A stretch of DNA of 36,119 nucleotides from Oxalobacteraceae bacterium (GTDB lineage: Bacteria; Pseudomonadota; Gammaproteobacteria; Burkholderiales; Burkholderiaceae_D): contig JAIXXZ010000070.1 in assembly GCA_027490465.1 (NCBI GenBank), forward strand, positions 1 to 36,119. The letters run 5' to 3'. Below are positions 4,794 through 31,851 of the stretch, piece by piece; position 1 is the first letter of the stretch; the number at the start of each line of letters is the position of its first letter. The notes under the pieces are model-generated. The model had not been told where the DNA came from. It saw nothing but the letters and a program-made list of their open reading frames with translations, and searched no databases. The position numbers and the translations under genes are program-made.

Positions 4794-5648
4794 TCAGGCT
4801 GAGGCTTTTGCCTGCGGATCGAGGCGTGCCAGGGCTTCCTTGCGATAGCGATTGAGCTCCTGCACCGATTCAAAGCTGCGCTCGAAAAGCAAAGAGAGGT
4901 TGTGCAAAATCCGGTCAACCACTTTCTTTTCCCACTCGCCGTCAAAATGAATCTGGTGGTCCAGCCAGGCCTCAAGCCAGTTGGGATCAGGCAGGCGACT
5001 CTGCACCGTATCGTTGGGATAGAGCGCTTGGTTGACATGCAGATTGGTCGGATGCAGCGGCTTGTCGGTACGCCGAGCCGAGGCCATCAACACGCCAATT
5101 TTTGCGAAGGCGACACGGGCGTTATCCCCCACCTCTGCCAGCGCTTTTTTCATGTAGCGCAAGTAGGCACCACCATGCCGCGCTTCATCCTGGCTAATGA
5201 CTTTGTAGATGTGCTTGATTACCGGCTCGGTGTGCCAGTCGGCAGCACAGCGATACCAATGATTGAGTCGTATCTCGCCGCAAAAATGCAGCATCAGCGT
5301 TTCCAGCGGCGGTGCCGGATCGAATTCGAAGCGCACGTTGTGCAGCTCTGCTTCGGTCGGCACCAACTCGGGGCGAAAACGGCGCAGATATTCCATCAGT
5401 ACCAGCGAATGCTTTTGCTCTTCGAAAAACCAGACGGACATGAAGGCAGAAAAGTCACTGTCATTGCGGTTATCACGCAAAAACATTTCCGTCGCGGGCA
5501 AGGCTGACCACTCGGTAATCGCATTCATGCGTATGGTCTGCGCCTGCTCGTCAGACAGCAGCGCAGGATCGAACTCGCCCCATGGAATATCGGTTTCCAT
5601 GTTCCAGCGGACCTGCTCAAGCGAGCGAAAGAGTTCGGGGTACAGCAT
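4794..5648 (-). CDS. Ferritin-like diiron protein resembling acyl-ACP desaturases
   Basis: This soluble 284-residue helical protein carries the signature of a carboxylate-bridged diiron site: two ExxH motifs (E77-H80 in FFEEQKH and E155-H158 in SQDEARH), a single Glu in CGEIRLNH (about 125), and a first-helix Glu in ITEWSALPATEMF (46 or 54). The spacing and the EEQKH/DEARH pair resemble the EENRH/DEKRH pair of soluble acyl-ACP desaturases, so an oxygen-dependent desaturase or oxygenase acting on a lipid is the best guess. The closest relatives may be uncharacterised ferritin-like proteins. A TAGAAT box (minus strand, 5682-5687) lies about 35 bases upstream of the start. It is encoded next to the photolyase gene and near the fatty-acid modification operon, which fits a lipid role. 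The substrate is unknown. Confidence 0.7.
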   Translation of the reverse strand: MLYPELFRSLEQVRWNMETDIPWGEFDPALLSDEQAQTIRMNAITEWSALPATEMFLRDNRNDSDFSAFMSVWFFEEQKHSLVLMEYLRRFRPELVPTEAELHNVRFEFDPAPPLETLMLHFCGEIRLNHWYRCAADWHTEPVIKHIYKVISQDEARHGGAYLRYMKKALAEVGDNARVAFAKIGVLMASARRTDKPLHPTNLHVNQALYPNDTVQSRLPDPNWLEAWLDHQIHFDGEWEKKVVDRILHNLSLLFERSFESVQELNRYRKEALARLDPQAKASA

Positions 5649-5755: not shown

Positions 5756-7291
5756 TTACAAGTCGTTGAGTGAACCAAGCATCTGCCCGGCACGAATCCG
5801 TATCGCCTCCCGCTCGGCTGCATCCAGCTTTTGCAGATTTTTCGCCATCAGCGCCGTTCTTGGGTTCGAAGACAGCGTCGCTTCGTGCGCGTCAATAAAA
5901 TGCCAGTACAAGGTGGTGAAGGGGCAGGCAGTCTCCCCAGTCCGTTTCGCGGGATCATAACGACAACCCGAACAATAATTGCTCTGGCGGTTGATGTAGG
6001 CGCCGCTCGCCACATACGGCTTGCTGGTGAAACGCGGACCACAGGCATGCAATGCCATGCCAGCCGTGTTTGGCAGCTCGACCCACTCAATCGCATCCAC
6101 ATAAATGGCCAGATACCAGTCGCATACCTGCTGCGGCGACAAGCCAGCAAGCAAGGCGAAATTACCCGTCACCATCAGCCGCTGAATGTGATGCGCATAA
6201 CCGAGCTCCAGCGTTTGCTTCAGGCTGTCACGCACACACGCCATTCCGGTTTTGCCGTTCCAGAACCAATCCGGCAGGTCGCGCTGATGGTCATAGTGGT
6301 TTGCCTTGGCCATTGCCGGCATATCGGTCCAGTACACACCACGAATAAACTCGCGCCAACCCAGTACCTGTCGTATGAAACCCTCTGCACTCTCGATGGT
6401 GACATGGCCCCGGCGCCAGGCCTGCTCCGCTGCCGCGATGACTTCGCGCGGATCGAGCAAATGCAAATTGAGCGCCGCTGACAACAGGGAATGCCAGCCG
6501 AGCGGCGTATCGGTCCACATCGCATCCTGATAATCACCGAATTTGCTCAGGCGCTGATCGATAAAACGCGCCAAAGCCTCCAAGCCCTGCTCTCTGGTGA
6601 CCGGCCATGCAAACTGCGCAAGCGAACCGGGGTGGTCGGGAAAAAGTTTTTCCACCAACTCGATCACTTGCAGCGTCACTGCATCGGGCGCGAATGCGGC
6701 GGGCGGCGGGATCACGCCGGGACCGGTGCGCTTGGGATAGGCACTGCGGTTCTCGGCATCGAAATTCCACTGCCCGCCGACCGGTTCGGCGCCGTCCATC
6801 ATGACGGCGAATTTTTTTCGCATCACGCGATAGAAAAACTCCAGGCGCAGCTCTTTCTTGCCTCGCGCCCAATCAGCAAATTCAGCCCGACTGCACAGAA
6901 AATGCGTGTCATCCAGCAGATGCAAGACCACGCCCTCATCACGAGCGACGCTTTGTATCTGCTGCGCCATGCGCCACTCGCCGGGCTCCACCAGCCGCAA
7001 GGCCTGGGGTCGATGCTGGCGCAAGGCCTGCCGCAGACGTTCATCGAAACCGGGATCGACCGGATCATCGATTTGCACATAGTGGAATGGCCAGCCGCGC
7101 TCCGCCAAGCCATTGGCGAAATGCCGCATCGCTGACAAAAAGAGGGCGATACGGGCCTTGTGCGACCAAACCGCCTTTGCCTCGCCCGGCGCCTCGATCA
7201 TCAGCACGGCATCCTGAGCCGGATCGAAGTCCTCGAACGCCGGGCTGGTAAAACTTAACTGGTCGCCGAGAACCAGGATCAGATGACGCAT
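5756..7291 (-). CDS. Cryptochrome/photolyase family protein with Fe-S cluster (FeS-BCP type)
   Basis: This protein of about 511 residues belongs to the iron-sulfur bacterial cryptochrome/photolyase group (Agrobacterium PhrB, Rhodobacter CryB). Members are FAD proteins that repair (6-4) photoproducts with light or act in photo-oxidative signalling. The N-terminus MRHLILVLGDQLS opens the antenna-binding fold. Four cysteines placed as [4Fe-4S] ligands are visible at about residues 352 (MACVRD), 440 and 443 (NYCSGC) and 456 (TACPF). The FAD-domain stretch VLGWREFIRGVYW and the conserved LPNTAGMALHACG are present. I start at the ATG at 7291 rather than the TTG at 7303 because the conserved N-terminus begins there. 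It diverges from the glutathione peroxidase gene. Confidence 0.9.
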   Translation of the reverse strand: MRHLILVLGDQLSFTSPAFEDFDPAQDAVLMIEAPGEAKAVWSHKARIALFLSAMRHFANGLAERGWPFHYVQIDDPVDPGFDERLRQALRQHRPQALRLVEPGEWRMAQQIQSVARDEGVVLHLLDDTHFLCSRAEFADWARGKKELRLEFFYRVMRKKFAVMMDGAEPVGGQWNFDAENRSAYPKRTGPGVIPPPAAFAPDAVTLQVIELVEKLFPDHPGSLAQFAWPVTREQGLEALARFIDQRLSKFGDYQDAMWTDTPLGWHSLLSAALNLHLLDPREVIAAAEQAWRRGHVTIESAEGFIRQVLGWREFIRGVYWTDMPAMAKANHYDHQRDLPDWFWNGKTGMACVRDSLKQTLELGYAHHIQRLMVTGNFALLAGLSPQQVCDWYLAIYVDAIEWVELPNTAGMALHACGPRFTSKPYVASGAYINRQSNYCSGCRYDPAKRTGETACPFTTLYWHFIDAHEATLSSNPRTALMAKNLQKLDAAEREAIRIRAGQMLGSLNDL

Positions 7292-7467
7292 AAGTGGGGC
7301 CAAAAAGTTGTCATAAATAAATTATTACCGTCCAAATGCCGCAGAAATCCTGGTGCTTTTGCTTTTTCGAAAATAACCAGAAAAAAGCTTACGGACAGTC
7401 ACACAATTTCCGTGAATGCGCTAGAATGACCCGGCAGTCTAAATTAAAACTTTATGGTATTCCCACA

Positions 7468-8058
7468 ATGAGCCAGTCGAAGATACGCGCAATACCGAGA
7501 ACGTGGTGGGTCATGGTCAGTTTCCTGGGCCTGATGACACTGCTGGCTTTGACGCCGCGCGCAAGTCTGGCGGGTGAATGCCCCACCCTGCTGAACTTCA
7601 AGCACAGCCGTCTTCAGGATGACTCGCCACAAAACCTTTGTCAGTACGCCGGCAAGGTCACGCTGGTCGTCAACACGGCGAGCTATTGCGGTTTTACCTC
7701 GCAATACGAAGGGCTGGAAAAACTGTATGCGACGTACAAAGACAAAGGCTTGGTGATTCTCGGCTTTCCTTCGAATGATTTCAGTCAGGAGCCTGGCGAC
7801 AGCAAGGAAATCGCCGACTTTTGCTACAACACCTATGGCGTGAAGTTTCCGATGTTTTCGAAAACAGCCGTCAAGGGCAAAGAAGCCCACCCGCTGTTCG
7901 CTGCCCTGGCCAAGACCAGTGGTAAGGCACCCAGCTGGAACTTCAACAAATACCTGATCGATCGCGAAGGCAAGCTCGTCAGTCATTACGGCAGCACCAC
8001 GGGGCCAAATGACAAAGCCTTGCTGGCCGCTATCGAAAAGGCACTCTCGACGAAGTGA
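7468..8058 (+). CDS. Exported glutathione peroxidase-family thiol peroxidase
   Basis: Glutathione peroxidases of this non-selenium type reduce lipid and hydrogen peroxides using thioredoxin or glutathione. The predicted peroxidatic cysteine is C74 in NTASYCGFTSQ. The partner Gln is in FPSNDFSQEPG (Q108) and the Trp in SWNFNKYLIDREG (about 157). C119 in DFCYNTYGVKFP could be the resolving cysteine. Residues 12-35 form a hydrophobic export signal ending PRASLAG, so it acts in the periplasm, which is unusual for the family but not rare. I chose the ATG at 7468. The frame is open upstream to 7336 without family similarity. It lies between the divergent photolyase and the lipid operon. Confidence 0.88.
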   Translation: MSQSKIRAIPRTWWVMVSFLGLMTLLALTPRASLAGECPTLLNFKHSRLQDDSPQNLCQYAGKVTLVVNTASYCGFTSQYEGLEKLYATYKDKGLVILGFPSNDFSQEPGDSKEIADFCYNTYGVKFPMFSKTAVKGKEAHPLFAALAKTSGKAPSWNFNKYLIDREGKLVSHYGSTTGPNDKALLAAIEKALSTK

Positions 8059-8059
8059 G

Positions 8060-8092
8060 TGACGCGGATGCGCGTCATCCGAAACGGTTTTT
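8060..8092 (+). terminator. Possible weak terminator after the peroxidase gene
   Basis: A 7-bp inverted repeat (TGACGCG at 8060-8066 and CGCGTCA at 8071-8077) with a GATG loop starts one base after the stop codon and is followed about ten bases later by five T residues. An alternative pairing, CGGATG with CATCCG, competes. The distance to the T-run makes it a poor intrinsic terminator, so read-through into the following operon is possible. Confidence 0.25.
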
Positions 8093-8203
8093 GCTGTGAT
8101 GCCTCCCAGCGCATGCTGGTGGCATGTCGGGGCGATCTTCCCCCAACCCGTATTCTCCCTGACGGGCGTCACAGCTTTTTTATTCATGCGGGATATCAAA
8201 ACG

Positions 8204-9505
8204 ATGAAGATCGCAGTGATTGGCTCCGGAATCTCCGGACTTTCAGCGGCGTGGCAACTGGCCCGCACGGGACACGAAGTGTCGCTTTACGAGGCAGGCG
8301 ATTACTTTGGCGGTCACACAAATACGGTGGACATTACCGTCGAGGGCAAGACCTTCGGTGTGGACACCGGCTTTCTCGTTTTTAACCACCGCACTTATCC
8401 GAATCTTGTCCGGCTGTTTGACGACATCAAAGTCAATACCTCAGCCAGCGACATGTCCTTCTCCTGCAAACTACCGCTCTCGGATCAACCCGGCGCGCGC
8501 ACGCTTGAATGGGCGGGTGCCAACCTCAATACCGTCTTCGCGCAAAGGCGAAATCTGTTCAATCCGCGCTTCCTGCGAATGATCAAAGATATTCTTCGCT
8601 TTAATCGTGAAACGACGCAGATGGCACAAAGTGGCAGCGCGATGGATGACATGCCACTCGGTGATTTTCTTGTTCAGCGCCAGTACAGCACGGAGTTCCG
8701 CGACTGGTATCTGCTACCCATGGCGGGCTGCATCTGGTCTTGTCCCACCGAGCAGATGCTCGCGTTTCCCCTCGCGACTTTCGTGCGCTTTTGTCATAAC
8801 CACGGATTGATTCAGGTAAATGACAGGCCTCAGTGGCATACCGTCACGGGCGGCGCTCGACATTATGTGATTCAACTGCTCAAAGAGATCACGAACAAAT
8901 ATCTCAAGACACCGGTCAGATCGGTGTCGCGTGTCGATCTCGGCGCACTGCGGCAAGTGAAAGTGGATTCTGCGATGGGCAGCCTCATGTACGACCAGGT
9001 CGTGCTTGCCTGCCACAGCGACCAAAGCCTTGCCATCCTGAGCGACGCCAGCGCTGAAGAGAAAAAAATTCTTTCTGCGGTGGGCTATCAGCCCAACCAC
9101 GCAGTACTTCACACGGACGTCAGCTGCCTGCCAGCCAGCAAGAAAGCCTGGTCGGCCTGGAACTATGAAAGCGCCGGTACTCAAGAGCCGCGTGTCTGCG
9201 TTCACTATCTGCTGAACATGCTGCAGCCGCTGCCGTGCAAAACGCCAGTGATCGTGTCACTCAATCCTTTGTCCGAACCGGATCCTGCGAGCGTCATGGG
9301 TCGCTTTGATTATGCCCATCCGGTCTTCGACAGCGCCGCCATTGCTGCACAACAGGCACTGCCTGGCATTCAAGGTGAGCGCAATACCTGGTTCGCCGGC
9401 GCATGGACGGGTTACGGATTCCACGAAGATGGCCTCAAATCCGGCTTGTCGGTTGCGCGCGCCATCGAACAACAGTCGCAGTTACAAGCGCGCCACGCTG
9501 CGTGA
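8204..9505 (+). CDS. FAD-dependent amine oxidase/desaturase-like protein (COG2907 type)
   Basis: This is a flavoprotein of the NAD/FAD-binding amine-oxidase fold, about 433 residues. The dinucleotide-binding motif MKIAVIGSGISGLSAAW starts at residue 1, followed by an FAD ribose-binding Glu in SLYEAGDYFGGHT. The C-terminal FAD motif is WFAGAWTGYGFHEDGLKSG. This branch is typically encoded with DUF1365 and a CFA-synthase-like gene, and in alphaproteobacteria a member has been assigned as a methyl-fatty-acid desaturase in furan fatty acid synthesis. That assignment is family knowledge and not shown here. I start at the ATG at 8204 because the Rossmann motif begins there. An in-frame ATG at 8186 also exists. 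It is the first gene of an eight-gene run, with DUF1365 beginning 11 bases after its stop. Confidence 0.88.
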   Translation: MKIAVIGSGISGLSAAWQLARTGHEVSLYEAGDYFGGHTNTVDITVEGKTFGVDTGFLVFNHRTYPNLVRLFDDIKVNTSASDMSFSCKLPLSDQPGARTLEWAGANLNTVFAQRRNLFNPRFLRMIKDILRFNRETTQMAQSGSAMDDMPLGDFLVQRQYSTEFRDWYLLPMAGCIWSCPTEQMLAFPLATFVRFCHNHGLIQVNDRPQWHTVTGGARHYVIQLLKEITNKYLKTPVRSVSRVDLGALRQVKVDSAMGSLMYDQVVLACHSDQSLAILSDASAEEKKILSAVGYQPNHAVLHTDVSCLPASKKAWSAWNYESAGTQEPRVCVHYLLNMLQPLPCKTPVIVSLNPLSEPDPASVMGRFDYAHPVFDSAAIAAQQALPGIQGERNTWFAGAWTGYGFHEDGLKSGLSVARAIEQQSQLQARHAA

Positions 9506-9516
9506 CGGAGGCCATC

Positions 9517-10311
9517 ATGCAAAAGCTGCCCAAGCAGGCATTGTTGAGTATGGGTCAGGTAAGACACAGTCGTCTGCGCCCCGCACAAAACACCTTCAGC
9601 TACGGTGTGTTCACACTGATGTTGCCTTTGCGTACCTTGGGTGATGCGGCGCTGCCCAGTCGTTTGTGCTCACGCAATCGCTTCAATCTGATGTCCTTCT
9701 ACGATCGCGATCATGGTGATGGCAAAACACCGCTGCTGCAATGGATAGACCAATTGCTTAAAAGCGAGCAGGTTGAAGATGCCGATGGCGAAATCTGGCT
9801 GCAAACCTTTCCCCGGGTACTGGGCTATGTATTCAACCCGGTCTCGTTCTGGTACTGCCACCGAAGCAATGGTGAATTGCGTGCGATTGTCTGCGAGGTG
9901 AACAATACCTTCGGCGAGCGTCACTGCTATCTGCTCGACACCGGCGACGTGATGCCTTGGGGCGTATCGCTGACCGCGAAAAAAGTATTCCATGTATCGC
10001 CGTTCTGCGCCGTCGAGGGCAGTTACCGCTTTCGCTTCATGCGCACCACGCAAACCATCGATAACCGAGATATCGAGCGTATCGTCGCGCGCATTGACTA
10101 CGACGACAACGCAGGCCCGCTGCTGCTCACCAGTGTGTCTGGGGCACTCTCACCACTCTCCAATGCCAGTGCCACCGAAGCCTTTCTGCGTCATCCGCTG
10201 ATGACCCTGGGCGTGATTGCCCGCATTCACTGGCAGGCGCTGCGACTGTTCATCAAGCGCGTGCCGTTCTTCAGCAAACCTTTGCCACCTTCTTCTTCAC
10301 TGAGCCGATGA
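9517..10311 (+). CDS. DUF1365 domain protein
   Basis: DUF1365 (COG3496) proteins are of unknown biochemistry and are almost always found next to a CFA-synthase-like methyltransferase and a flavin amine oxidase. The family hallmarks are present: an N-terminal GQVRHSRLRPAQNTFSYGVF, the FNLMSFYDRDHGDG stretch, and the central VLGYVFNPVSFWYCH followed by EVNNTFGERHCYLL. The start at 9517 is supported by GGAG at 9507-9510. The protein is 264 residues with no clear signal peptide. Its last four bases overlap the start of the next gene (ATGA), which indicates translational coupling and joint action with the methyltransferase. Confidence 0.92.
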   Translation: MQKLPKQALLSMGQVRHSRLRPAQNTFSYGVFTLMLPLRTLGDAALPSRLCSRNRFNLMSFYDRDHGDGKTPLLQWIDQLLKSEQVEDADGEIWLQTFPRVLGYVFNPVSFWYCHRSNGELRAIVCEVNNTFGERHCYLLDTGDVMPWGVSLTAKKVFHVSPFCAVEGSYRFRFMRTTQTIDNRDIERIVARIDYDDNAGPLLLTSVSGALSPLSNASATEAFLRHPLMTLGVIARIHWQALRLFIKRVPFFSKPLPPSSSLSR

Positions 10312-11543
10312 ATAAACCACTGTCCCCCTCACGTGCCCTCAATGATGAAATTGCCGGCAGCTATCTTCAATCTGCCGCGCTGCCGACACAGGCACGCATC
10401 GTGCTGCAAATGTTGCGACGGCTTGAGCATGGCTCGCTGAAGCTGAAATGCCCGGATGGGAACGTGCTGCATTTTGGCGATGACAGCGCACCGGTCACTC
10501 TGACACTCAAGAACTGGGAACCTTGCATCGCGGTGATGAAATCCGGTGATATCGGATTTGCCGAGAGCTTCATCAGCCAGCAATGGCATACCGATGACCT
10601 GACCGGCCTGCTCAAGCTCTTCATCTACAACCGCAATGCTCTGGAAACGGCGATTTATGGCAGCTGGTGGGGCAGCCTGGTTTATCGCATCCGCCACCTT
10701 TTCAACCGCAATTCGCGCGCTGGCAGTCGTCGCAATATTCATGCGCACTACGATATCGGCAATCGCTTTTACCGGCTGTGGCTGGATCCGTCGATGACCT
10801 ATTCAAGCGCGCTGTTTGCCAAGCCGCAGGCAACGCTGCAAGAAGCACAAACCGCCAAATACGAGCGCATCTATGACGAACTGCACGTGAGTGCCGGCAG
10901 CCGCATTCTGGAAATCGGTTGTGGCTGGGGTGGCTTTGCCGAACTTGCTGCAAAGCGCGGCCTACACCTCACGGGGCTGACGCTCTCGACCGAGCAGCTT
11001 GAATTCGCACGGCAACGCTTGCAAGCTGCAGGACTGGGCGAACAGACCGAACTCAGGCTGCAGGATTATCGTGATGCCGACGGTGAATTTGATGCAATCG
11101 CTTCGATCGAGATGTTCGAAGCTGTCGGTGAATCCTACTGGGATAGCTACTTCGAGTGTGTCGCGCAAAGGCTAAAGACAGGCGGTCGCGCCTGCATACA
11201 AACCATCACGATTGATGATTCACTGTTCGAGCGCTATCGCACCGGCACTGATTTCATTCAGCAATATATTTTCCCCGGCGGCATGCTGCCGTCGCCCTCG
11301 GTATTTCGTGCTCATGCCGAACGTCATGGACTGCAGGTGGTCAATGAACTCGCGTTTGGTCTGGACTATGCGCGCACACTCGAACTCTGGCATGCCGCCT
11401 TCATGAAAACACTGCCCGAGGTGGAAGCGCAGGGTTTTGACCGCGCATTCATTCAAACCTGGCGCTTTTATTTGTCTTATTGCGAAGCGGGATTCCGTGC
11501 CGGCAGCATCGATCTGTATCAGTTCACATTACAGAAACAATGA
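10308..11543 (+). CDS. Cyclopropane-fatty-acid-synthase-like SAM-dependent methyltransferase
   Basis: This 411-residue enzyme belongs to the mycolic acid/CFA synthase family, which transfers a methylene or methyl group from SAM to the double bond of unsaturated acyl chains in membrane phospholipids. The lipid-binding region HAHYDIGNRFYRLWLDPSM and TYSSALF are at about 146-170, and the SAM motif LEIGCGWGG is at 201-209. The active-site Glu lies in SIEMFEAVGESYW (about 267-279), where classical E. coli Cfa has MFEHVG. The IFPGGMLPS motif follows. The overlaps on both sides (ATGA with DUF1365, ATG/TGA with the next gene) point to tight coupling. Whether it forms a cyclopropane ring or a methyl branch cannot be told from the sequence. 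Confidence 0.92.
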   Translation: MNKPLSPSRALNDEIAGSYLQSAALPTQARIVLQMLRRLEHGSLKLKCPDGNVLHFGDDSAPVTLTLKNWEPCIAVMKSGDIGFAESFISQQWHTDDLTGLLKLFIYNRNALETAIYGSWWGSLVYRIRHLFNRNSRAGSRRNIHAHYDIGNRFYRLWLDPSMTYSSALFAKPQATLQEAQTAKYERIYDELHVSAGSRILEIGCGWGGFAELAAKRGLHLTGLTLSTEQLEFARQRLQAAGLGEQTELRLQDYRDADGEFDAIASIEMFEAVGESYWDSYFECVAQRLKTGGRACIQTITIDDSLFERYRTGTDFIQQYIFPGGMLPSPSVFRAHAERHGLQVVNELAFGLDYARTLELWHAAFMKTLPEVEAQGFDRAFIQTWRFYLSYCEAGFRAGSIDLYQFTLQKQ

Positions 11544-12091
11544 TGACAGCGGTATGCCAACGAATTTTCTTGCTGGCTCTGGTTGCATTCCTGCTGCCTC
11601 TGTCGGCGATTGCGCAGTCATCGCCGGCTTACGTACGGCAAGCGCTGCCCGAGGCCACACTGGTCGGACAGGGGATGTTTCGGTGGTTTAGTCTGAGTAT
11701 CTACAAAGCGCGCCTGTGGGGCGACAAAACAAAAGTTACCGCGACGGGATGGGCGGGCAGCCCTTTTGCACTGGAACTGGAATATACGCGAACACTGTAT
11801 GGTGAAAAAATTGCCATCGCCAGCATTGATGAAATCAAAAAACTGGGGATAGGCACCAACGCACAACATGATCAATGGCTGGTGGATATGAAAAAAATCT
11901 TCCCGAATGTGGAAGAAGGCCATCAACTGACGGGCATTTTCACGCCTGGGCAGCCATCGCGCTTTTTTTTCAATGGCAAACCCGTCGGTGATGTTGCCGA
12001 CCCCGAATTCGGTCCTGCTTTTTTTGGTATCTGGTTACACCCGAAAACATCTGCACCGAAATTGCGTCAGCTTTTGCTGAATACGAAATGA
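11540..12091 (+). CDS. Exported chalcone-isomerase-like protein
   Basis: Bacterial chalcone-isomerase-like proteins share a fold with plant fatty-acid-binding and flavonoid enzymes and have no established catalytic role. A signal peptide occupies about residues 1-26 (FLLALVAFLLPLSAIAQ). The mature domain begins with a glycine-containing VGQGMFRWFSLSIYKARLW stretch and contains ALELEYTRTLYGEKIA and FFNGKPVGDVADPEFG, which match the family pattern. The start ATG at 11540 overlaps the stop of the methyltransferase gene by four bases. A second ATG follows directly at 11543. Its place in the operon suggests binding of a lipid or lipid intermediate in the periplasm, which is an inference. Confidence 0.8.
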   Translation: MMTAVCQRIFLLALVAFLLPLSAIAQSSPAYVRQALPEATLVGQGMFRWFSLSIYKARLWGDKTKVTATGWAGSPFALELEYTRTLYGEKIAIASIDEIKKLGIGTNAQHDQWLVDMKKIFPNVEEGHQLTGIFTPGQPSRFFFNGKPVGDVADPEFGPAFFGIWLHPKTSAPKLRQLLLNTK

Positions 12092-12126
12092 CCGGGCTCC
12101 ACCTTGTATAAACAGAGAAGTCTGGA

Positions 12127-13365
12127 ATGAAGTTCTCCCTCAGGCATTTATTTGCCTACGGCTTGTTCGGATTGCCACTGTCGCTGCTGGCGCTGCCCGT
12201 ATATGTCGTGGTACCGCAGCTGTATGCGGGCACGCTGGGATTGTCGCTGACGGCCGTGGGCAGTCTCTTGCTGGCAGCGAGATTGTTTGATGCCTTCATT
12301 GATCCAGCCCTCGGTGGATGGATGGACAGGTCAGCACTGAAGCGGGGTTACGCCGGCTTTGTGCTGATGTCACTGGTGCCCTTGGGCGCGGGTTATCTGG
12401 CGCTGTTTCATCCGCCGATGATGTCGACGAATTATCTGTATCTGTGGTTTGGTTTGAGTTTGCTGGTGGTCTATGTGGGCTTCAGCATGGCGACGATTGC
12501 ACACAATAGCTGGGGCGCGAGCCTCACGCAGCAACGCGGTGAACGCGCGCGACTGACCGCAACGCGCGAAGCCTGTGCCTTGGTCGGCGTGGTGATGGCG
12601 GCAGCGCTGCCGATGCTGATAGGCATGGCTGGCTTGTCGGTTGTTTTTATTGTTTTGCTTGCAGTGACCGCCTTTGTGCTGCTGCGCTTTGCACCGCAGG
12701 CCTTATTGCGCGCTGTCGAGGATGCACCAGCGCACTCGGTCATGCTGCCCTTGCGCGACCGACAGTTTCGCTGGCTGCTGGCCGTTTTCGCTGTCAATGG
12801 CATTGCCGCTGCGATACCAGCGACGCTGTTCATGTTTTTTGCTTCAGACAGACTGCAGCTGCCGGAGTATGCGGGTTTGTTTCTGGTGCTGTATTTCCTT
12901 GCCGCCGCACTGGCATTGCCCGTGTGGGCGAAGCTGGCCTCAAGCATTGGTGAAGCCAATGCCTGGCTGGCCGGCATGCTGCTTGCTGTGAGTGCTTTTG
13001 TGTGGACGGCACAGCTGGACAGTGGCGCGCTGGTGGCCTTTGCGGTGATTTGTGTGTTGTCGGGTGCAGCGCTGGGTGCAGATCTGGCTTTGCCGCCAGC
13101 CTTGCTGGCCGGCGTGATCGGCGCGGCGGGGCATAGTGGGCAGCGCGAGGGTGCGTATTTTGGGCTTTGGAGCTGGATGACCAAGCTGAATCTTGCTCTC
13201 GCTGCAGGCATTTCACTGCCTTTGCTGGACTGGCTGGGTTATGCGCCGGGTCATGCAAGTGAAGAAGGATTACGCGCGCTCGTGATCGGGTATGCGTTAC
13301 TGCCGTGTGGACTGAAAGTGGGTGCGGGCTTGCTCTTGTGGCGTTCACCACTGAAGCAAGTGTGA
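12127..13365 (+). CDS. GPH/MFS-type membrane transporter
   Basis: This 412-residue protein with about eleven or twelve hydrophobic segments belongs to the major facilitator superfamily and resembles the glycoside-pentoside-hexuronide (GPH) cation symporter branch. The loop GGWMDRSALKRGYAG after the second membrane segment matches the MFS motif A position. The typical GPH N-terminus (LFAYGLFGLPLSLLALPVYV) is visible. A homologous symporter gene is found in the singlet-oxygen-responsive operon of Rhodobacter sphaeroides, so the substrate is unlikely to be a common sugar and may be a lipid precursor. That is inference. It starts 35 bases after the previous gene. Confidence 0.88.
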   Translation: MKFSLRHLFAYGLFGLPLSLLALPVYVVVPQLYAGTLGLSLTAVGSLLLAARLFDAFIDPALGGWMDRSALKRGYAGFVLMSLVPLGAGYLALFHPPMMSTNYLYLWFGLSLLVVYVGFSMATIAHNSWGASLTQQRGERARLTATREACALVGVVMAAALPMLIGMAGLSVVFIVLLAVTAFVLLRFAPQALLRAVEDAPAHSVMLPLRDRQFRWLLAVFAVNGIAAAIPATLFMFFASDRLQLPEYAGLFLVLYFLAAALALPVWAKLASSIGEANAWLAGMLLAVSAFVWTAQLDSGALVAFAVICVLSGAALGADLALPPALLAGVIGAAGHSGQREGAYFGLWSWMTKLNLALAAGISLPLLDWLGYAPGHASEEGLRALVIGYALLPCGLKVGAGLLLWRSPLKQV

Positions 13366-13412
13366 AACTGAAATCCGGGACAACACCAAAACAAAAATTA
13401 TGGAGATGGATT

Positions 13413-13952
13413 GTGAATGCATGGATACGATCAATCAGCTTTGTGCTGGCCATCGCAGTGGCTGGCTGCGGGACAACAATGACGCCCGCTGATTACGCTG
13501 CCGAGCAGCCGGCGCTCGACCTGAAAACCTACTTCAATGGCACCGTGGATGCGTGGGGAATTTTTCAGGATCGCTCGGGCAAAGTCGTCAAGCGCTTCAC
13601 CGTGGTGATGCATTGCAGCTGGGACGGCGATACGGGCACGCTGGACGAAGACTTCACCTACTCGGATGGCACCACGCAAAAACGCGTGTGGACGCTCAAG
13701 AAAGTCGGCGCAAACCGCTACATCGGCACAGCAGGTGATGTGATCGGCGAAGCCGATGGTACCACCGGTGGCAACACGCTCAACTGGAAATACGTGCTGG
13801 CACTCCCCGTGGATGGCAAGGTGTATCACGTCAATTTCGATGACTGGATGTACCAGATGGATGAGAACGTGATGATCAACCGCGCGGTCATGAGCAAATT
13901 TGGCATCAGGCTGGGCGAGGTCACCCTGTCATTTCGCAAAAGGCCGCAGTGA
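13413..13952 (+). CDS. DUF3833 lipoprotein
   Basis: The protein is 179 residues long when started at the GTG at 13413, which has GGAG seven bases upstream (13402-13405). Longer in-frame starts would overlap the transporter gene and bury the signal sequence. Residues 1-20 are a lipoprotein signal with lipobox AVAGC, so it is probably anchored to a membrane facing the periplasm. The DUF3833 hallmarks are LKTYFNGTVDAWGIFQDRSG, the EDFTYSDGTTQKRVW stretch and NFDDWMYQMDENVMINRA. The function of DUF3833 is unknown. The fold looks like a lipocalin-type beta barrel, which would fit lipid binding, but this is a guess. It is coupled to the next gene, whose start overlaps its stop. Confidence 0.85.
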   Translation: MNAWIRSISFVLAIAVAGCGTTMTPADYAAEQPALDLKTYFNGTVDAWGIFQDRSGKVVKRFTVVMHCSWDGDTGTLDEDFTYSDGTTQKRVWTLKKVGANRYIGTAGDVIGEADGTTGGNTLNWKYVLALPVDGKVYHVNFDDWMYQMDENVMINRAVMSKFGIRLGEVTLSFRKRPQ

Positions 13953-14797
13953 TGATGCAAGCGCCGCAAGCGCTGCGGGTGCACGACACGCAGACAACGC
14001 TGTATGAACCTGCAGGCAGCGGGATGAACCCGCTCATCCGGGACTGGCGTGGCGCGCGGGTGTGGATCATTGGTGCATCGACTGGCATAGGTGCGGAGAC
14101 GGCCAAGCTGCTGCTCGAGAAAGGCGCGCGTGTGGCGATCTCGGCACGCAAGACGGATGCGCTCCAAGAAATTGCGGATACCTATCCGCAAGCACTGGTC
14201 CTGACACTCGACGTGACACAACATGCACAAGTTCTTTCCGCACGCGATCAGCTGCTTGCAGAATGGGGCGGACTGGATCTGATGTTGATTGTGGCCGGCG
14301 CCTACAATGAAATGCGTGTCGATAGCTTTGATATGGCGGTGGTGAATCAATTGCTGGACGTGAATCTGCGGGGCGTGTTTCACTGCATTGATGCGATGCT
14401 GCCGATTTTGCTCAGTCAGAAGAACGGCGGTGGTGGCATCGGTATCGTGTCATCCGTAGCGGGTTACTCGGGTTTGCCCAAGGCGCTGGTGTACGGCCCG
14501 ACCAAGGCGGCGCTGATCAATCTGTGCGAATCGCTGTACTTCGATCTGCATCCGCGGGGACATGCGGTGTACATGATCAATCCCGGTTTCGTTGCCACAC
14601 CAGCGACCGCGCAAAACAACTTTGTGATGCCCGGCCTGATCAGCGCCGGGCGTGCAGCCCAGGAAATCGTGACCGGGATGGAAAAAGGTGTCTTCCATAT
14701 TCATTTTCCCAAAGGCTTCACGAACTGGCTCAGAATGGCAAGACTCTTGCCCTATCGCTGGTATTTTTCACTGATTCACAAAGTGACCGGTCTATGA
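13952..14797 (+). CDS. Short-chain dehydrogenase/reductase
   Basis: This is a classical SDR with NAD(P)-binding motif VWIIGASTGIGAETAK, the NAG-equivalent IVAGAYN, and a catalytic triad Ser in GIVSSVAGYSG followed by YGPTKAAL (Tyr-x-x-x-Lys). The start is uncertain. The ATG at 13952 overlaps the stop of the lipoprotein gene and has AAAGG about eight bases upstream, while the ATG at 14024 (MNPLIRDWRG) gives a more typical SDR N-terminus. The C-terminus (FPKGFTNWLRMARLLPYRWYF) is amphipathic and could touch the membrane. Its last four bases overlap the next gene. It probably oxidises or reduces a lipid-derived carbonyl or alcohol, inferred from the operon. Confidence 0.9.
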   Translation: MMQAPQALRVHDTQTTLYEPAGSGMNPLIRDWRGARVWIIGASTGIGAETAKLLLEKGARVAISARKTDALQEIADTYPQALVLTLDVTQHAQVLSARDQLLAEWGGLDLMLIVAGAYNEMRVDSFDMAVVNQLLDVNLRGVFHCIDAMLPILLSQKNGGGGIGIVSSVAGYSGLPKALVYGPTKAALINLCESLYFDLHPRGHAVYMINPGFVATPATAQNNFVMPGLISAGRAAQEIVTGMEKGVFHIHFPKGFTNWLRMARLLPYRWYFSLIHKVTGL

Positions 14798-15225
14798 ACC
14801 ATGAAGAAAGCTTGCAAGGACTTATACGATTTTTTGAGACGATCGAGACTGGCAGCGTCGGCCAGCTGGCTGAGGTATATAGCGAAGATGTGTTTTTCAA
14901 AGATCCCTTTAACGAAGTTCGCGGCTTGCCCGAAGTCGTACGAATTTTTTCTCACATGTTCGAGCAAGTCGATAGGCCGCGCTTTGTGGTGACAAATCAT
15001 GTGCTGCAAGGAGATCAGGCGTTTCTGACCTGGGATTTCCTGTTTCGAATGAAACGCTTTTCTGCAGCAGAGCAATGCATACGAGGCGCCACGCATCTTC
15101 GCTTCGGCCCCGATGGCAAGGCAAATTTCCATCGTGATTACTGGGATGCGGCAGAGGAGCTCTACGAAAAGCTGCCCTTGCTGGGTGCATTGATGCGCGG
15201 TCTCAAACGACTGGCGCGCAAATAA
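14794..15225 (+). CDS. SnoaL/NTF2-like protein
   Basis: A 143-residue cytosolic protein of the nuclear-transport-factor-2 fold, a cone-shaped fold used for small hydrophobic ligands, isomerases and hydratases. The pattern FFETIETGSVGQLAEVYSED, then FFKDPFNEVRG, and the closing FHRDYWDAAEELYEKLP are typical of this family, with HRDYWD the usual C-terminal motif. The ATG at 14794 overlaps the SDR stop by four bases (ATGA). It is the last gene of the run, and the next gene (phaM) is convergent. The substrate is unknown. An isomerase or ligand-binding role in the same lipid pathway is plausible. Confidence 0.82.
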   Translation: MNHEESLQGLIRFFETIETGSVGQLAEVYSEDVFFKDPFNEVRGLPEVVRIFSHMFEQVDRPRFVVTNHVLQGDQAFLTWDFLFRMKRFSAAEQCIRGATHLRFGPDGKANFHRDYWDAAEELYEKLPLLGALMRGLKRLARK

Positions 15226-15309
15226 GCGTACTGATCAAGCTCTGGTGGCCAGTGCTGCTCGGCATATTCCGTCGATTGCCGTACTCAGATTGACGGAAGC
15301 GATGAAATC

Positions 15310-15882
15310 TCAGGCCTTGGTTTTTTTTCTGGCGCGCGGGGCGGTGGTTTTTTTTGCCGCTGGCGTTGCTTTCTTTTTGGGTGCTGCCTTCTTGCTGGCC
15401 GCTTTTTTCGGCGGCGTCACCACCTGATTTACTGCTTGAGTAAACTGATCCTGCACGGTGTTCCACCACAGGGCGGGGTTGGCGAACTGTGCCGCGAATG
15501 CCGATGTGTCCGGCATGCCTGGTGCAGATTTGTCTGTCTTGTCGGCAGATTTTTCAAAGGGTGAGTCGAATGCAGGCTTGCTCTCGGCAGTGGGGCGGCT
15601 GGTACCCGCATGCGAAAAACTCTGGCCCATGGTCTGAATCGCAGACAGGGTAGCGCTCTGGACTTCCAGCGTCTGTATCGTGGTGCGCAACATGTTCATG
15701 TTCATTTGCAACCAGGACTCGACAGCCTTGAGATCAGTAATTTGTTTGTTGATGTCGTCGGGTGACATCGATGGCATGGACATGCCGGGGATTTTCATCG
15801 CACCCCACATGTTACGAACGAATTCGAGTGTGTCGTTCATTGCGCCGGCTCCCGGCAAGCTACCCATGTCATTGCTGGACAT
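15310..15882 (-). CDS. phaM: PhaM-type PHB granule-associated protein
   Basis: PhaM activates the PHB synthase PhaC1 and tethers polyhydroxybutyrate granules to DNA in Cupriavidus/Ralstonia. The N-terminal part carries the family's NDTLEFVRNMWGAMKIPGM and LKAVESWLQMNMNMLRTTIQ helix, and the C-terminal 40 residues are a histone-H1-like tail rich in Lys, Ala and Pro (KKAASKKAAPKKKATPAAKK), which binds DNA in characterised members. The length of 190 residues is somewhat below that of the Ralstonia protein. The start at 15882 has GGGGAG seven bases upstream. No other PHB gene is present in the window. Confidence 0.85.
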   Translation of the reverse strand: MSSNDMGSLPGAGAMNDTLEFVRNMWGAMKIPGMSMPSMSPDDINKQITDLKAVESWLQMNMNMLRTTIQTLEVQSATLSAIQTMGQSFSHAGTSRPTAESKPAFDSPFEKSADKTDKSAPGMPDTSAFAAQFANPALWWNTVQDQFTQAVNQVVTPPKKAASKKAAPKKKATPAAKKTTAPRARKKTKA

Positions 15883-16035: not shown

Positions 16036-17370
16036 ATGTCTGCGCGTGACCCATTCCCTCACTTGCTGCTGCCCTCCGGTCGCAAAGCTGGATTCGTGCT
16101 GCTCGTGCTTCTCATATGCGTGCTCGCACATTTGTTCGTGATTCAATGGGCCAAAGACAGTCTCGCCATGGTATTGCTGCTTGATGATAAAGAAGATGTC
16201 ATCGAGGTCACGCTGCAAACGATGACGACACCCGAAAGCCGGGCGGCGATACCAGAGCCGCCAGCACCCGCAACAACCGCCTCGGAAACCCCGCCACCGC
16301 GCTTGCCCAACATTCCGGAGACAAACACGGCACCGGCCACAAACGAAGCTGCAACCCCCGTTGTCACCGGCCCAGATCCTGCGCCGCCCCCGGGCCAAAC
16401 AAGCACGTCCGCCGAGGCAGTGAATGAAACAGCATTGGCGGCGGTGGCAGCGTCGCCGACAGAGCCCGTATTGCCGCCAGCACCAAGCCCGGTTCAATCG
16501 CATGCACCACCGGAACCCGCTCCAGAGCAAACTCGCGCATCACCGGAACCAACTGAGGAACCGCCGCGCGCATCACCGGAACCAACTGAGGAACCGCCGC
16601 GTGCATCACCGGAACCTAATGCGGAACCGACTCGCGCACCACCGGCACCAGTTCCATCACAAACTGATGTATCTCCATCAGCACCCTCAACTACGGCAGA
16701 TACGCCCCGCCTGTTTTCCCGCATCAGCCTGCCACCATCTGCCGATCTCAGCTATGACGCGGTCGCCATCAAAGGCAGTAGCAAGGTCGAAGGTCGGGGT
16801 CTGGTGAAGTGGGTGCAGGATGGTCGACAGTACTCGATCACGGGTGAAGCCTCCGTATTGTTTTTATCCGTGCTCAGCTACCGCAGTGAAGGTCGCCTCA
16901 GCGAAATCGGTATCTTGCCCGAGCTCTACACGGAAAAGCGTATGGGAAAATCGTCGACCAATACGCATTTTCATCGCGAGCGTCAGACGATCAGTTTTTC
17001 GGCTTCGACCAACAACTATCCGGTCAAAGGCGGCGAACAGGATCGCGGCAGCGTTTTCTGGCAACTGGCCGGTCTGGCGCGCGGTAATCCTGAGAAGCTG
17101 CAGGCAGGCTTGTCATTCGATCTGATCATCGCAGGTAGCCGCACGGCTGATCCGTGGCGGGTGACGGTGCATGGGAGGGAGCCCGTCGCGCTGGGGCAGG
17201 GCCGCACTGATGCCTGGCATATGAGCCTGGTGAGACCTGATGGCGGCACCGACTACCAGCTCGAGGTCTGGATCGCCCCCGGACAGGACTGGTATCCAGT
17301 CAAAATCATGTATGTAGATCGCAAGGGGACATCGCTTGGGTTAACCTTATCGAAACTGGAAAAAAAATAA
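16036..17370 (+). CDS. DUF3108 protein with TonB-like membrane anchor and proline-rich stalk
   Basis: The layout is a short cytoplasmic N-terminus, one membrane helix (about residues 18-37, GFVLLVLLICVLAHLFVIQW), a long Pro/Glu/Ala-rich stalk (about 60-225) containing tandem 11-residue repeats of the RASPEPTEEPP type, then a DUF3108 domain (about 230-444) with the block VKGGEQDRGSVFWQL. The stalk resembles those of TonB-type proteins that cross the periplasm. The function of DUF3108 is not established, though a link to the cell envelope is likely. The gene diverges from phaM and is followed by a paralog of its C-terminal domain starting 38 bases downstream, then queC, all in one direction. 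Confidence 0.8.
   Translation: MSARDPFPHLLLPSGRKAGFVLLVLLICVLAHLFVIQWAKDSLAMVLLLDDKEDVIEVTLQTMTTPESRAAIPEPPAPATTASETPPPRLPNIPETNTAPATNEAATPVVTGPDPAPPPGQTSTSAEAVNETALAAVAASPTEPVLPPAPSPVQSHAPPEPAPEQTRASPEPTEEPPRASPEPTEEPPRASPEPNAEPTRAPPAPVPSQTDVSPSAPSTTADTPRLFSRISLPPSADLSYDAVAIKGSSKVEGRGLVKWVQDGRQYSITGEASVLFLSVLSYRSEGRLSEIGILPELYTEKRMGKSSTNTHFHRERQTISFSASTNNYPVKGGEQDRGSVFWQLAGLARGNPEKLQAGLSFDLIIAGSRTADPWRVTVHGREPVALGQGRTDAWHMSLVRPDGGTDYQLEVWIAPGQDWYPVKIMYVDRKGTSLGLTLSKLEKK
16501..16665 (+). repeat. Tandem 33-bp coding repeat (about five units)
   Basis: Units of 33 bases begin at 16501, 16534, 16567, 16600 and 16633. The second and third are nearly identical (CGCGCATCACCGGAACCAAC plus 13 more bases) and the outer ones are diverged. 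Each encodes eleven residues of the RASPEPTEEPP type within the proline-rich stalk. The unit length keeps the reading frame, so copy number can vary without breaking the gene. Confidence 0.85.
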
Positions 17371-31737: not shown

Positions 31738-31768
31738 CACGCTCTCCTTTCAATTGAAAAAAAGTAAC

Positions 31769-31839
31769 GTGAGCGCGGTTGCGGTGAAGACTAACCAAGC
31801 CTGGCGAAATTCAGATGATTTCGTCGCAACGCTCCTTGG
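31769..31839 (-). promoter_or_regulatory. SAH riboswitch
   Basis: On the minus strand the leader reads CCAAGGAGCGTTGCGACG, a short hairpin with arms GAAAT/ATTTC, CCAGGCTTGG, then GCAACCGCGCTCACG. This matches the conserved SAH riboswitch core: the GGAGCG-TGCRACG strand, the CCAAG/CTTGG-type stem with GCCAGGCT, and the closing AAC-GCGCTCAC strand. The class is known upstream of ahcY in beta- and gammaproteobacteria and turns expression on when SAH accumulates. A run of seven T residues (31757-31763) and the ribosome site (about 31745-31750) follow. The upstream edge is close to the end of the rhombosortase gene. Confidence 0.9.
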
Positions 31840-31851
31840 CAGGGCGATATT

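Follow-up and report, generated by a model that had tools for sequence, protein, structure and literature searches.

The closest described relatives of the locus analysed here are the furan fatty acid genes of Rhodobacter sphaeroides, in which ufaM, ufaD and ufaO suffice for furan fatty acid formation (PMC7380195). This trio takes cis-vaccenate through a methylated diene to the furan. UfaM is an S-adenosylmethionine (SAM)-dependent methylase, UfaO contains a DUF1365 domain, and deletion of RSP1087, 1088 or 1089 leaves the fatty-acid profile unchanged (PMC7380195). RSP_1089 is a GPH symporter, RSP_1087 is a short-chain dehydrogenase/reductase (SDR), and a photolyase and folE2 belong to the same RpoE regulon (PMC7074977, Table 1). 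Among described small RNAs, the alpha-r14 RNAs carry CCUCCUCCC, described as an anti-Shine-Dalgarno sequence (PMC10746234), and CcsR1-4 of Rhodobacter are cut from the 3' untranslated region of a stress gene (PMC8625941). We analysed a 36,119-nucleotide (nt) stretch of DNA from an Oxalobacteraceae bacterium (GenBank assembly GCA_027490465.1, contig JAIXXZ010000070.1, positions 1 to 36,119 of the forward strand; hereafter the window), in which eight genes, three of them of the ufa families, follow a glutathione peroxidase gene (gpx) and a conserved structured RNA.

The explanation that best covers the whole locus, with a probability that we put at roughly 0.58, is a photo-oxidative membrane-protection unit that combines furan fatty acid enzymes with a released small RNA. 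Judged by its protein families, the eight-gene set most likely serves to make and handle membrane fatty acids of the furan type as a defence against light damage. The novelty of the locus is in its control and not in its enzyme set.

Results

A conserved operon with probable furan fatty acid genes

The operon and the RNA in front of it comprise the following features.

8086-8185, + strand: conserved structured RNA between gpx and ufaD (alignment, covariation)
8204-9505, + strand: flavin amine oxidase-like gene, ufaD-like desaturase (Pfam Amino_oxidase 7.7e-18; PDB LkcE 2.8e-37)
9517-10311, + strand: DUF1365 gene, ufaO-like furan-forming oxygenase (Pfam DUF1365 6.2e-84)
10308-11543, + strand: SAM methyltransferase resembling cyclopropane fatty acid (CFA) synthase, ufaM-like (Pfam CMAS 1.4e-85)
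11540-12091, + strand: Chalcone_3 protein (Pfam Chalcone_3 2.7e-11; signal-like N-terminus by eye)
12127-13365, + strand: GPH/MFS_2 transporter (Pfam MFS_2 2e-56)
13413-13952, + strand: DUF3833 lipoprotein, GTG start (Pfam DUF3833 3.8e-71; Cys19 invariant)
13949-14797, + strand: SDR (Pfam adh_short 6.2e-39)
14794-15225, + strand: SnoaL_2-like protein (Pfam SnoaL_2 1.7e-15)

A sequence-only reading of this DNA had named the eight plus-strand open reading frames (ORFs) and their families, and Pfam backs each assignment. The four overlapping junctions that it described are all 4-bp stop-start overlaps in ORF coordinates (10308, 11540, 13949 and 14794). Its gene set stands as far as the eight genes go, but gpx, the divergent photolyase-related gene and the conserved RNA had been overlooked.

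Relatives were collected by a DUF3833 protein scan of genome contigs, which gave 51 loci, most of them titled beta-proteobacteria (the exceptions include L024 and L035, whose titles give Gammaproteobacteria, and L060, whose title gives Porticoccaceae). The gene-order count was restricted to the 38 relatives with DNA spanning the whole region. The order ufaD-ufaO-ufaM-Chalcone_3-GPH-DUF3833-SDR-SnoaL was complete and collinear in 32 of these 38; one gene was undetected in five (Chalcone_3 in L015, GPH in L038, L040, L045 and L047), and three of the eight genes were seen in L046. Because so many relatives keep all eight in order, the eight genes are, on gene order, a conserved operon and more than a chance neighbourhood. 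Overlaps and collinearity together bear out the operon proposed earlier, and the same collinear loci answer the suggested search for co-occurrence of the eight families in other genomes. More widely, a sample of 398 genomes across the phylum contained DUF3833 in 113, and one of 200 genomes of the order contained DUF1365 in 91. An outgroup set comprised 20 regions around DUF3833 genes from other orders or classes, assigned to gamma or alpha by kinship labels and so by inference. The ufa trio was present in 12 of these and DUF3833 without the trio in eight (L151, L153, L155, L157, L163, L164, L168 and L169); outgroup UfaD shared 42-50% identity with whichever of five beta queries matched it best, the window query being only one of the references.

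The first three genes of the operon are family matches to Rhodobacter UfaD, UfaO and UfaM, and the UfaD-like, DUF1365 and CMAS genes stand together, which is the gene content expected of a UfaMDO system. In L162, L165 and L170, loci of another class (probably alpha), the ufa operon is divergent to an extracytoplasmic function (ECF) sigma gene with a chrR above the NCBI cut-off, in all three tested. No sigma gene or chrR was seen by eye in L161, which is alpha-type and has the trio; L166 and L167 lie outside this count. The chrR-linked loci tie the gene set to the Rhodobacter system (PMC7380195, PMC7074977). The family link to singlet-oxygen regulons and to methyl and furan fatty acids that the sequence-only reading had drawn is upheld in this way, by family and by ChrR-linked loci.

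By homology, UfaM (10308-11543) would use SAM to methylate a cis-unsaturated phospholipid acyl chain, leaving a methylated trans double bond, UfaD (8204-9505) would introduce a second double bond, and UfaO (DUF1365) would insert O2, the resulting methyl-furan fatty acid being a scavenger of singlet oxygen. Were the operon an ordinary one for cyclopropane fatty acids, this would also account for the CMAS/CFA family match of UfaM and for the fact that its closest solved relatives are CFA synthases. Against this, the window UfaM scored 255.2 and 261.2 bits against the NCBIfam CFA-synthase equivalogs, below their cut-offs of 400 and 600 bits. We aligned 22 of the 41 available UfaM sequences (window included) with the solved CFA synthases 5z9o, 6bqc and 7qos as references. 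Ser167 stands in place of the CFA-synthase Cys in 21 of the 22 and Gln298 in place of the His in all 22; the window protein retains Glu (E271) and Tyr (Y354) of the solved enzymes. The window UfaM therefore lacks the active-site Cys and His of a cyclopropane fatty acid synthase, residues that we take to hold bicarbonate in those enzymes. DUF1365 and amine-oxidase-like genes, moreover, accompany ufaM in all 37 covered loci that bear it, and we consider a cyclopropane operon quite improbable.

Accessory proteins

By analogy with R. sphaeroides, the other five genes look accessory to the ufa trio. The proposal that all eight genes form one linear pathway is not supported, as three R. sphaeroides genes suffice and the RSP1087, 1088 and 1089 deletions are without effect (PMC7380195). 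Since the GPH transporter, RSP_1088 and the SDR are not needed for furan fatty acid there, the accessory parts probably act after or beside furan synthesis.

Profiles of Chalcone_3 and DUF3833 gave chance-level matches only against PDB sequences, and predicted folds were used for this reason. The Chalcone_3 model (predicted local distance difference test score, pLDDT, 91) has a chalcone-isomerase/fatty-acid-binding-protein fold, and Foldseek matched it to chalcone isomerases and to the Arabidopsis fatty-acid-binding protein AtFAP1 at template modelling (TM) scores of about 0.6. The DUF3833 model (pLDDT 92.9) forms a barrel of ten strands; its structural matches were weak (best E 1.2e-4) and comprised BFA1, the fatty-acid-binding-like Ycf58, CpeS, nitrophorins and the spirocyclase OssO. 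On these models both proteins may be lipid carriers. Chalcone_3 and the DUF3833 lipoprotein, with its calycin-like barrel, would probably act outside the inner membrane, where they would bind and carry acyl chains that have been modified or oxidised, and the GPH transporter, SDR and SnoaL protein would probably move and detoxify breakdown products. Fold-based hypotheses are now available for the Chalcone_3 and DUF3833 proteins, which previously had no role.

A structured RNA between gpx and ufaD

When the leaders of relatives were aligned, a block with a U-tract at its end emerged between these two genes. The corresponding RNA of about 100 nt (8086-8185) is predicted to form a three-way junction in which P1 pairs 8093-8102 with 8166-8175 and P2 and P3 are hairpins; the C/U-rich P3 loop includes GATCTTCCCCC (8134-8144), and the U-tract occupies 8176-8185. 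Taken alone, the window stretch had a fold z of -2.58 against shuffles, of which 3 of 200 were as good. A structure-free alignment of 13 sequences gave the three-way junction with 23 pairs (95.3% of cells paired), and two-sided compensatory changes were found in 15 of the 23, in all three helices. Shuffles reached the real value in 0 of 500 cases on four of five measures and in 13 of 500 on the fifth, and slid controls were far lower; as the structure was derived from this same alignment and related sequences can beat shuffles, these figures are strong evidence and not a probability. When eight more sequences were aligned to the model, which biases them towards it, 17 of 23 pairs had two-sided changes. 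RNAalifold on a structure-free alignment of 30 sequences recovered P1 and P3, with two-sided changes in 12 of 18 pairs. None of 4227 Rfam models matched the window RNA (L054 gave only a chance match below the cut-off), and no description of this RNA was found in Rfam or in searches of an open-access library of papers.

The first model built from these leaders matched 14 of 52 sources (the window and the 51 loci), 13 of which had built it; all matches were directly 5' of ufaD and the next had E 0.41. Among 195 family-level genomes the RNA was present in 14, nine of the window's genus and five of four other genera, in one copy each and directly 5' of ufaD in every case; it was not found in G178, a genome of the window's genus. 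At the order level, a refined model matched 13 of 399 genomes. Two had been matched before (the window's own and G004) and ten were new and believable; the last, G415 (L090, E 6.4e-5), reads by eye as transporter coding DNA and was left out of the count as a likely false positive. Three of the ten new RNAs precede ufaD, four follow gpx with no ufaD within 1.5 kb, and three do neither. The DUF3833 gene is on another contig in G324 and G480, and none was seen in G285, G361, G393 and G534. Searches of 18 other relatives and of plasmids returned no copy. The gap from RNA to ufaD is 18 nt in the window and 18 to 106 nt over 14 sequences; L077 keeps the RNA and ufaD with no gpx within 1.5 kb, and in L078 and L079 the RNA is separated from gpx by DNA that looks folE2-like by eye. 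On these sequence matches the RNA occurs in part of a single order; it is associated with gpx and ufaD but can stand alone.

In 17 of the 30 sequences the longest pyrimidine run of P3 contains CCUCC, which resembles an anti-Shine-Dalgarno sequence, and in 15, the window not among them, it contains CUCCUCCC. Anywhere in the RNA, CCUCC is found in 28 of 30, and in the window's clade that match falls in P1/P2.

Candidate controllers of the furan module

The sequence-only reading had left the control of the operon open. This stands for the window genome (93% complete), where the search for a controller of the unit gave no rpoE-chrR and no linked CarH photoreceptor, and is superseded for the relatives, which show two alternative controllers, rpoE-chrR and CarH/LitR-type genes; the conserved RNA lies directly upstream. 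The sole chrR candidate in the window genome was a double-cupin protein (L009) at 39.1 of the required 124.5 bits, and it was rejected, with no sigma gene in its 3.3-kb locus. The pattern TGATC-N16-19-CGTA lies between the sigma gene and ufaD in L162, L165 and L170 (5 sites), and is weak alone, with 33 matches in 20 loci. No exact match is near the operon; those in the window are at 20084 on the plus strand and on the minus strand (position 21601 thereon). A candidate sigmaE site within gpx at 7955 (one mismatch, N17) was discarded as chance level, with 9 sites against 6.0 expected.

An upstream survey covered 40 relatives having ufaD and at least 300 nt upstream. A MerR-type gene for a CarH/LitR-type photoreceptor was next to ufaD or to the genes preceding it in 21 of them. 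The MerR-type protein of L057, the sole one scanned with Pfam, has MerR and B12-binding domains. By the motif definition of PMC8156234, the Wx9EH motif and the ExHx2Gx41S core of CarH were present in all 21; a fuller CarH motif with GG, when Ser was accepted at the Thr/Val position, fitted all but L027, whose gene is truncated by the contig end (20 of 21), and with strict Thr/Val it fitted 0 of 21. Seven of the 40 relatives have neither the RNA nor CarH, and one, L057, has both.

The palindrome TTTGTCNNNGACAAA, at one mismatch or fewer, lies within 2.2 kb 5' of ufaD in 20 of the 21 CarH-type relatives and in L052, and in none of the 12 RNA-bearing loci without CarH; four further sites are elsewhere in the 40 loci, and some sites fall inside the CarH coding region. 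In the window no site comes within one mismatch, and the two-mismatch sites are at chance level with none near the operon. The palindrome may be the CarH operator. In the CarH-type loci L024-L059, TTTGTCNNNGACAAA palindromes are near TTGACA-like -35 elements beside the CarH-type genes. The Pseudomonas operator T(G/A)TA(C/T)A-N12-TGTA(C/T)A was not found on the plus strand of the window or of the 51 relatives.

No full-length CarH/LitR was found in the window genome, which gave only MerR helix-turn-helix-level and other partial matches. Within the window's genus, 1 of 18 genomes (G047, L172) had a near full-length CarH profile match, unlinked to the operon, and Pfam detects only the MerR part of this gene. 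In this genus, the RNA is found at a locus that does not carry the light-sensing repressor CarH. These comparisons suggest that the furan module apparently keeps its parts while its controller swaps among rpoE-chrR, a CarH/LitR-type protein, or neither. Regulator exchange around one membrane-protection pathway thereby becomes directly testable.

Two variations of gene content were also observed. In ten loci (L024, L029-L031, L033-L036, L049 and L053) a gene stands between the CarH-type gene and ufaD, which is folE2 GTP cyclohydrolase by Pfam in the representative L049. In the Undibacterium loci L038, L045 and L047, GPH and CarH were undetected and a TetR-type gene is divergent from ufaD (Pfam on L038 only).

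Genes and sites around the operon

Upstream of the RNA the window carries these features.

5756-7303, - strand: photolyase-related gene (DPRP family), divergent from gpx (Pfam DPRP 4.8e-77)
7398-7427, + strand: candidate promoter GTCACA-18-TAGAAT, 5' of gpx (promoter-pattern scan)
7336 or 7468-8058, + strand: glutathione peroxidase gene gpx (Pfam GSHPx 4e-32)

The gpx product is probably exported, with ATG 7468 as the probable start within an ORF that opens at 7336. The photolyase-related gene adjoins the operon in part of the relatives, and both it and gpx are frequent companions of the operon. In a promoter scan of 7250-15400, GTCACA-18-TAGAAT was the sole plus-strand match, and its -10 element (TAGAAT or TAAAAT) is kept by eye in nine of ten sequences (the window and nine loci), L022 being without it. 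Just 3' of this element, at 7437-7450, lies the palindrome GTTTWAATTWAAAC (one mismatch), which is present in most leaders of the clade and is possibly the operator of some repressor. A search for a GTTTWAATTWAAAC regulon gave three genome sites against one for the control, which is no clear regulon.

A Ferritin-like protein (4794-5648, minus strand) has weak FA_desaturase_2/AurF matches; in relatives that carry it next to the ufa operon, identity is 72-96%, and it could be a further acyl-chain enzyme of the unit. Elsewhere in the window are an S-adenosylhomocysteine (SAH) riboswitch (RF01057) at 31764-31843 on the minus strand (56.4 bits against a cut-off of 37), an ordinary find, and a DUF3108 protein with a Pro/Glu-rich repeated segment (16036-17370), followed by a second DUF3108 gene and queC.

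Discussion

Seven of the ten new order-level matches have no ufaD within 1.5 kb, and the RNA is read for this reason as a gene of its own, for a small RNA linked to stress that may have a part in regulating other genes under it. Transcription would start before gpx, at the proposed gpx promoter, and run into the RNA. It would then stop in part at the P1 helix and U-tract and in part read through into the eight genes, and the RNA would be set free to act in trans as a small RNA, with its C/U-rich loop base-pairing to other mRNAs. We propose tentatively, at somewhat less than even odds, that a new Burkholderiales small-RNA family, marked by the three-way junction and a C/U-rich loop that often resembles anti-Shine-Dalgarno, is a built-in riboregulatory arm of the photo-oxidative furan-lipid/glutathione-peroxidase unit, in which the transcript for the lipid enzymes emits an RNA that lowers translation of other genes. 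The locus also provides a precise candidate small-RNA family, backed by covariation, in a photo-oxidative stress setting.

Several results weigh against the small RNA or against the unit as a whole. The window's clade and L076 (13 of the 30 sequences) have P3 runs such as UCUUCCCCC, the window's own, without CCUCC; this lowered the small-RNA reading and raised the attenuator and terminator alternatives taken up below. No perfect complement to the window's 11-nt loop core exists in the genome outside the RNA itself, and RNAalifold did not recover P2 from the 30-sequence alignment. The RNA was in 3 of 369 genomes drawn at the class level, all of one order, and in none of the 20 loci of other orders or classes. 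The promoter scan returned 2 matches over both strands against 3.9 expected by chance. The link to R. sphaeroides is one of family membership and ChrR-linked loci, not of its own UfaM/D/O sequences, and the dispensability of its GPH, RSP_1088 and SDR for furan fatty acid (PMC7380195) belongs here too.

The main rival to a trans-acting RNA is an attenuator or riboswitch that works on ufaD in cis: P1 would close in response to a ligand or to stress and end transcription ahead of ufaD. The RNA is immediately 5' of ufaD in all 14 family-level genomes with a match, a U-tract follows P1, and the 18 nt to the window's start codon are insufficient for a separate promoter. Such a role fits poorly with the seven order-level RNAs that have no ufaD within reach, four of which (G285, G361, G393 and G534) are in genomes where DUF3833 was not seen either, and with the variable gap to ufaD; no conserved alternative anti-terminator helix was seen, although no systematic search was made. 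We hold this reading to be doubtful, if the most serious of the alternatives. Were the RNA a mere gpx terminator without a function of its own, its frequent position directly 3' of gpx and its terminal U-tract would follow, but a terminator has no need of a junction that is conserved and shows two-sided changes in each of its three helices. L077, with no gpx within 1.5 kb, and L078 and L079, where other DNA intervenes, also speak against it, and we judge it unlikely. The conservation might finally be that of protein, if 8096-8203 coded an N-terminal extension of UfaD. The listed ufaD ORF indeed opens upstream, at GTG 8096, in a frame that runs into ufaD and is also open in 4 of 13 other loci (L011, L012, L013 and L016). 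In-frame stops, however, interrupt the stretch between the RNA start and ufaD in the other 9 of 13, and the covariation fits the helices, which makes a coding origin very improbable indeed.

The photo-oxidative unit with a released small RNA, which we prefer, shares parts with several described systems. Like the R. sphaeroides ufa genes and RSP1087-1091 operon under RpoE-ChrR, it has UfaD, UfaO, UfaM, a GPH symporter and an SDR (PMC7380195, PMC7074977, PMC6852236), and a photolyase is common to both, folE2 also being in the R. sphaeroides regulon (PMC7074977). Unlike R. sphaeroides, the window has all of these genes in one operon, with Chalcone_3 and SnoaL added and the RNA in front, and rpoE-chrR was not found in its genome. 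The Shewanella RpoE2-ChrR operon SO_3386-SO_3374 (phrB, cfa) together with pgpD likewise brings photolyase, cfa and a periplasmic glutathione peroxidase into one stress regulon, although the Shewanella gpx is in another operon (PMC4336711). In L158 and L160, from other orders of the class, DUF2878 lies between ufaM and Chalcone_3; the window is without it and has GPH after Chalcone_3. The Pseudomonas pmlR1 region under a class II LitR is similar in that phrB, an SDR, a FAD oxidoreductase and ufaM are light-induced, and likely polycistronic there (PMC9758184). Its LitR consensus, T(G/A)TACA-N12-TGTA(C/T)A (PMC9758184), differs from the TTTGTCNNNGACAAA of beta CarH-type loci, and the window has neither.

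Among RNAs, part of the new family shares anti-Shine-Dalgarno loops with Cuckoo/alpha-r14 (PMC10746234). Those RNAs have three hairpins, each with an unpaired CCUCCUCCC, an arrangement that RNA 8086-8185 lacks; the new family, seen in one order, has a single junction and a single C/U-rich loop. By analogy, the RNA most resembles CcsR (PMC8625941), in its way of working and not by membership, and the operon behind it is an unusually complete member of a known stress-lipid module.

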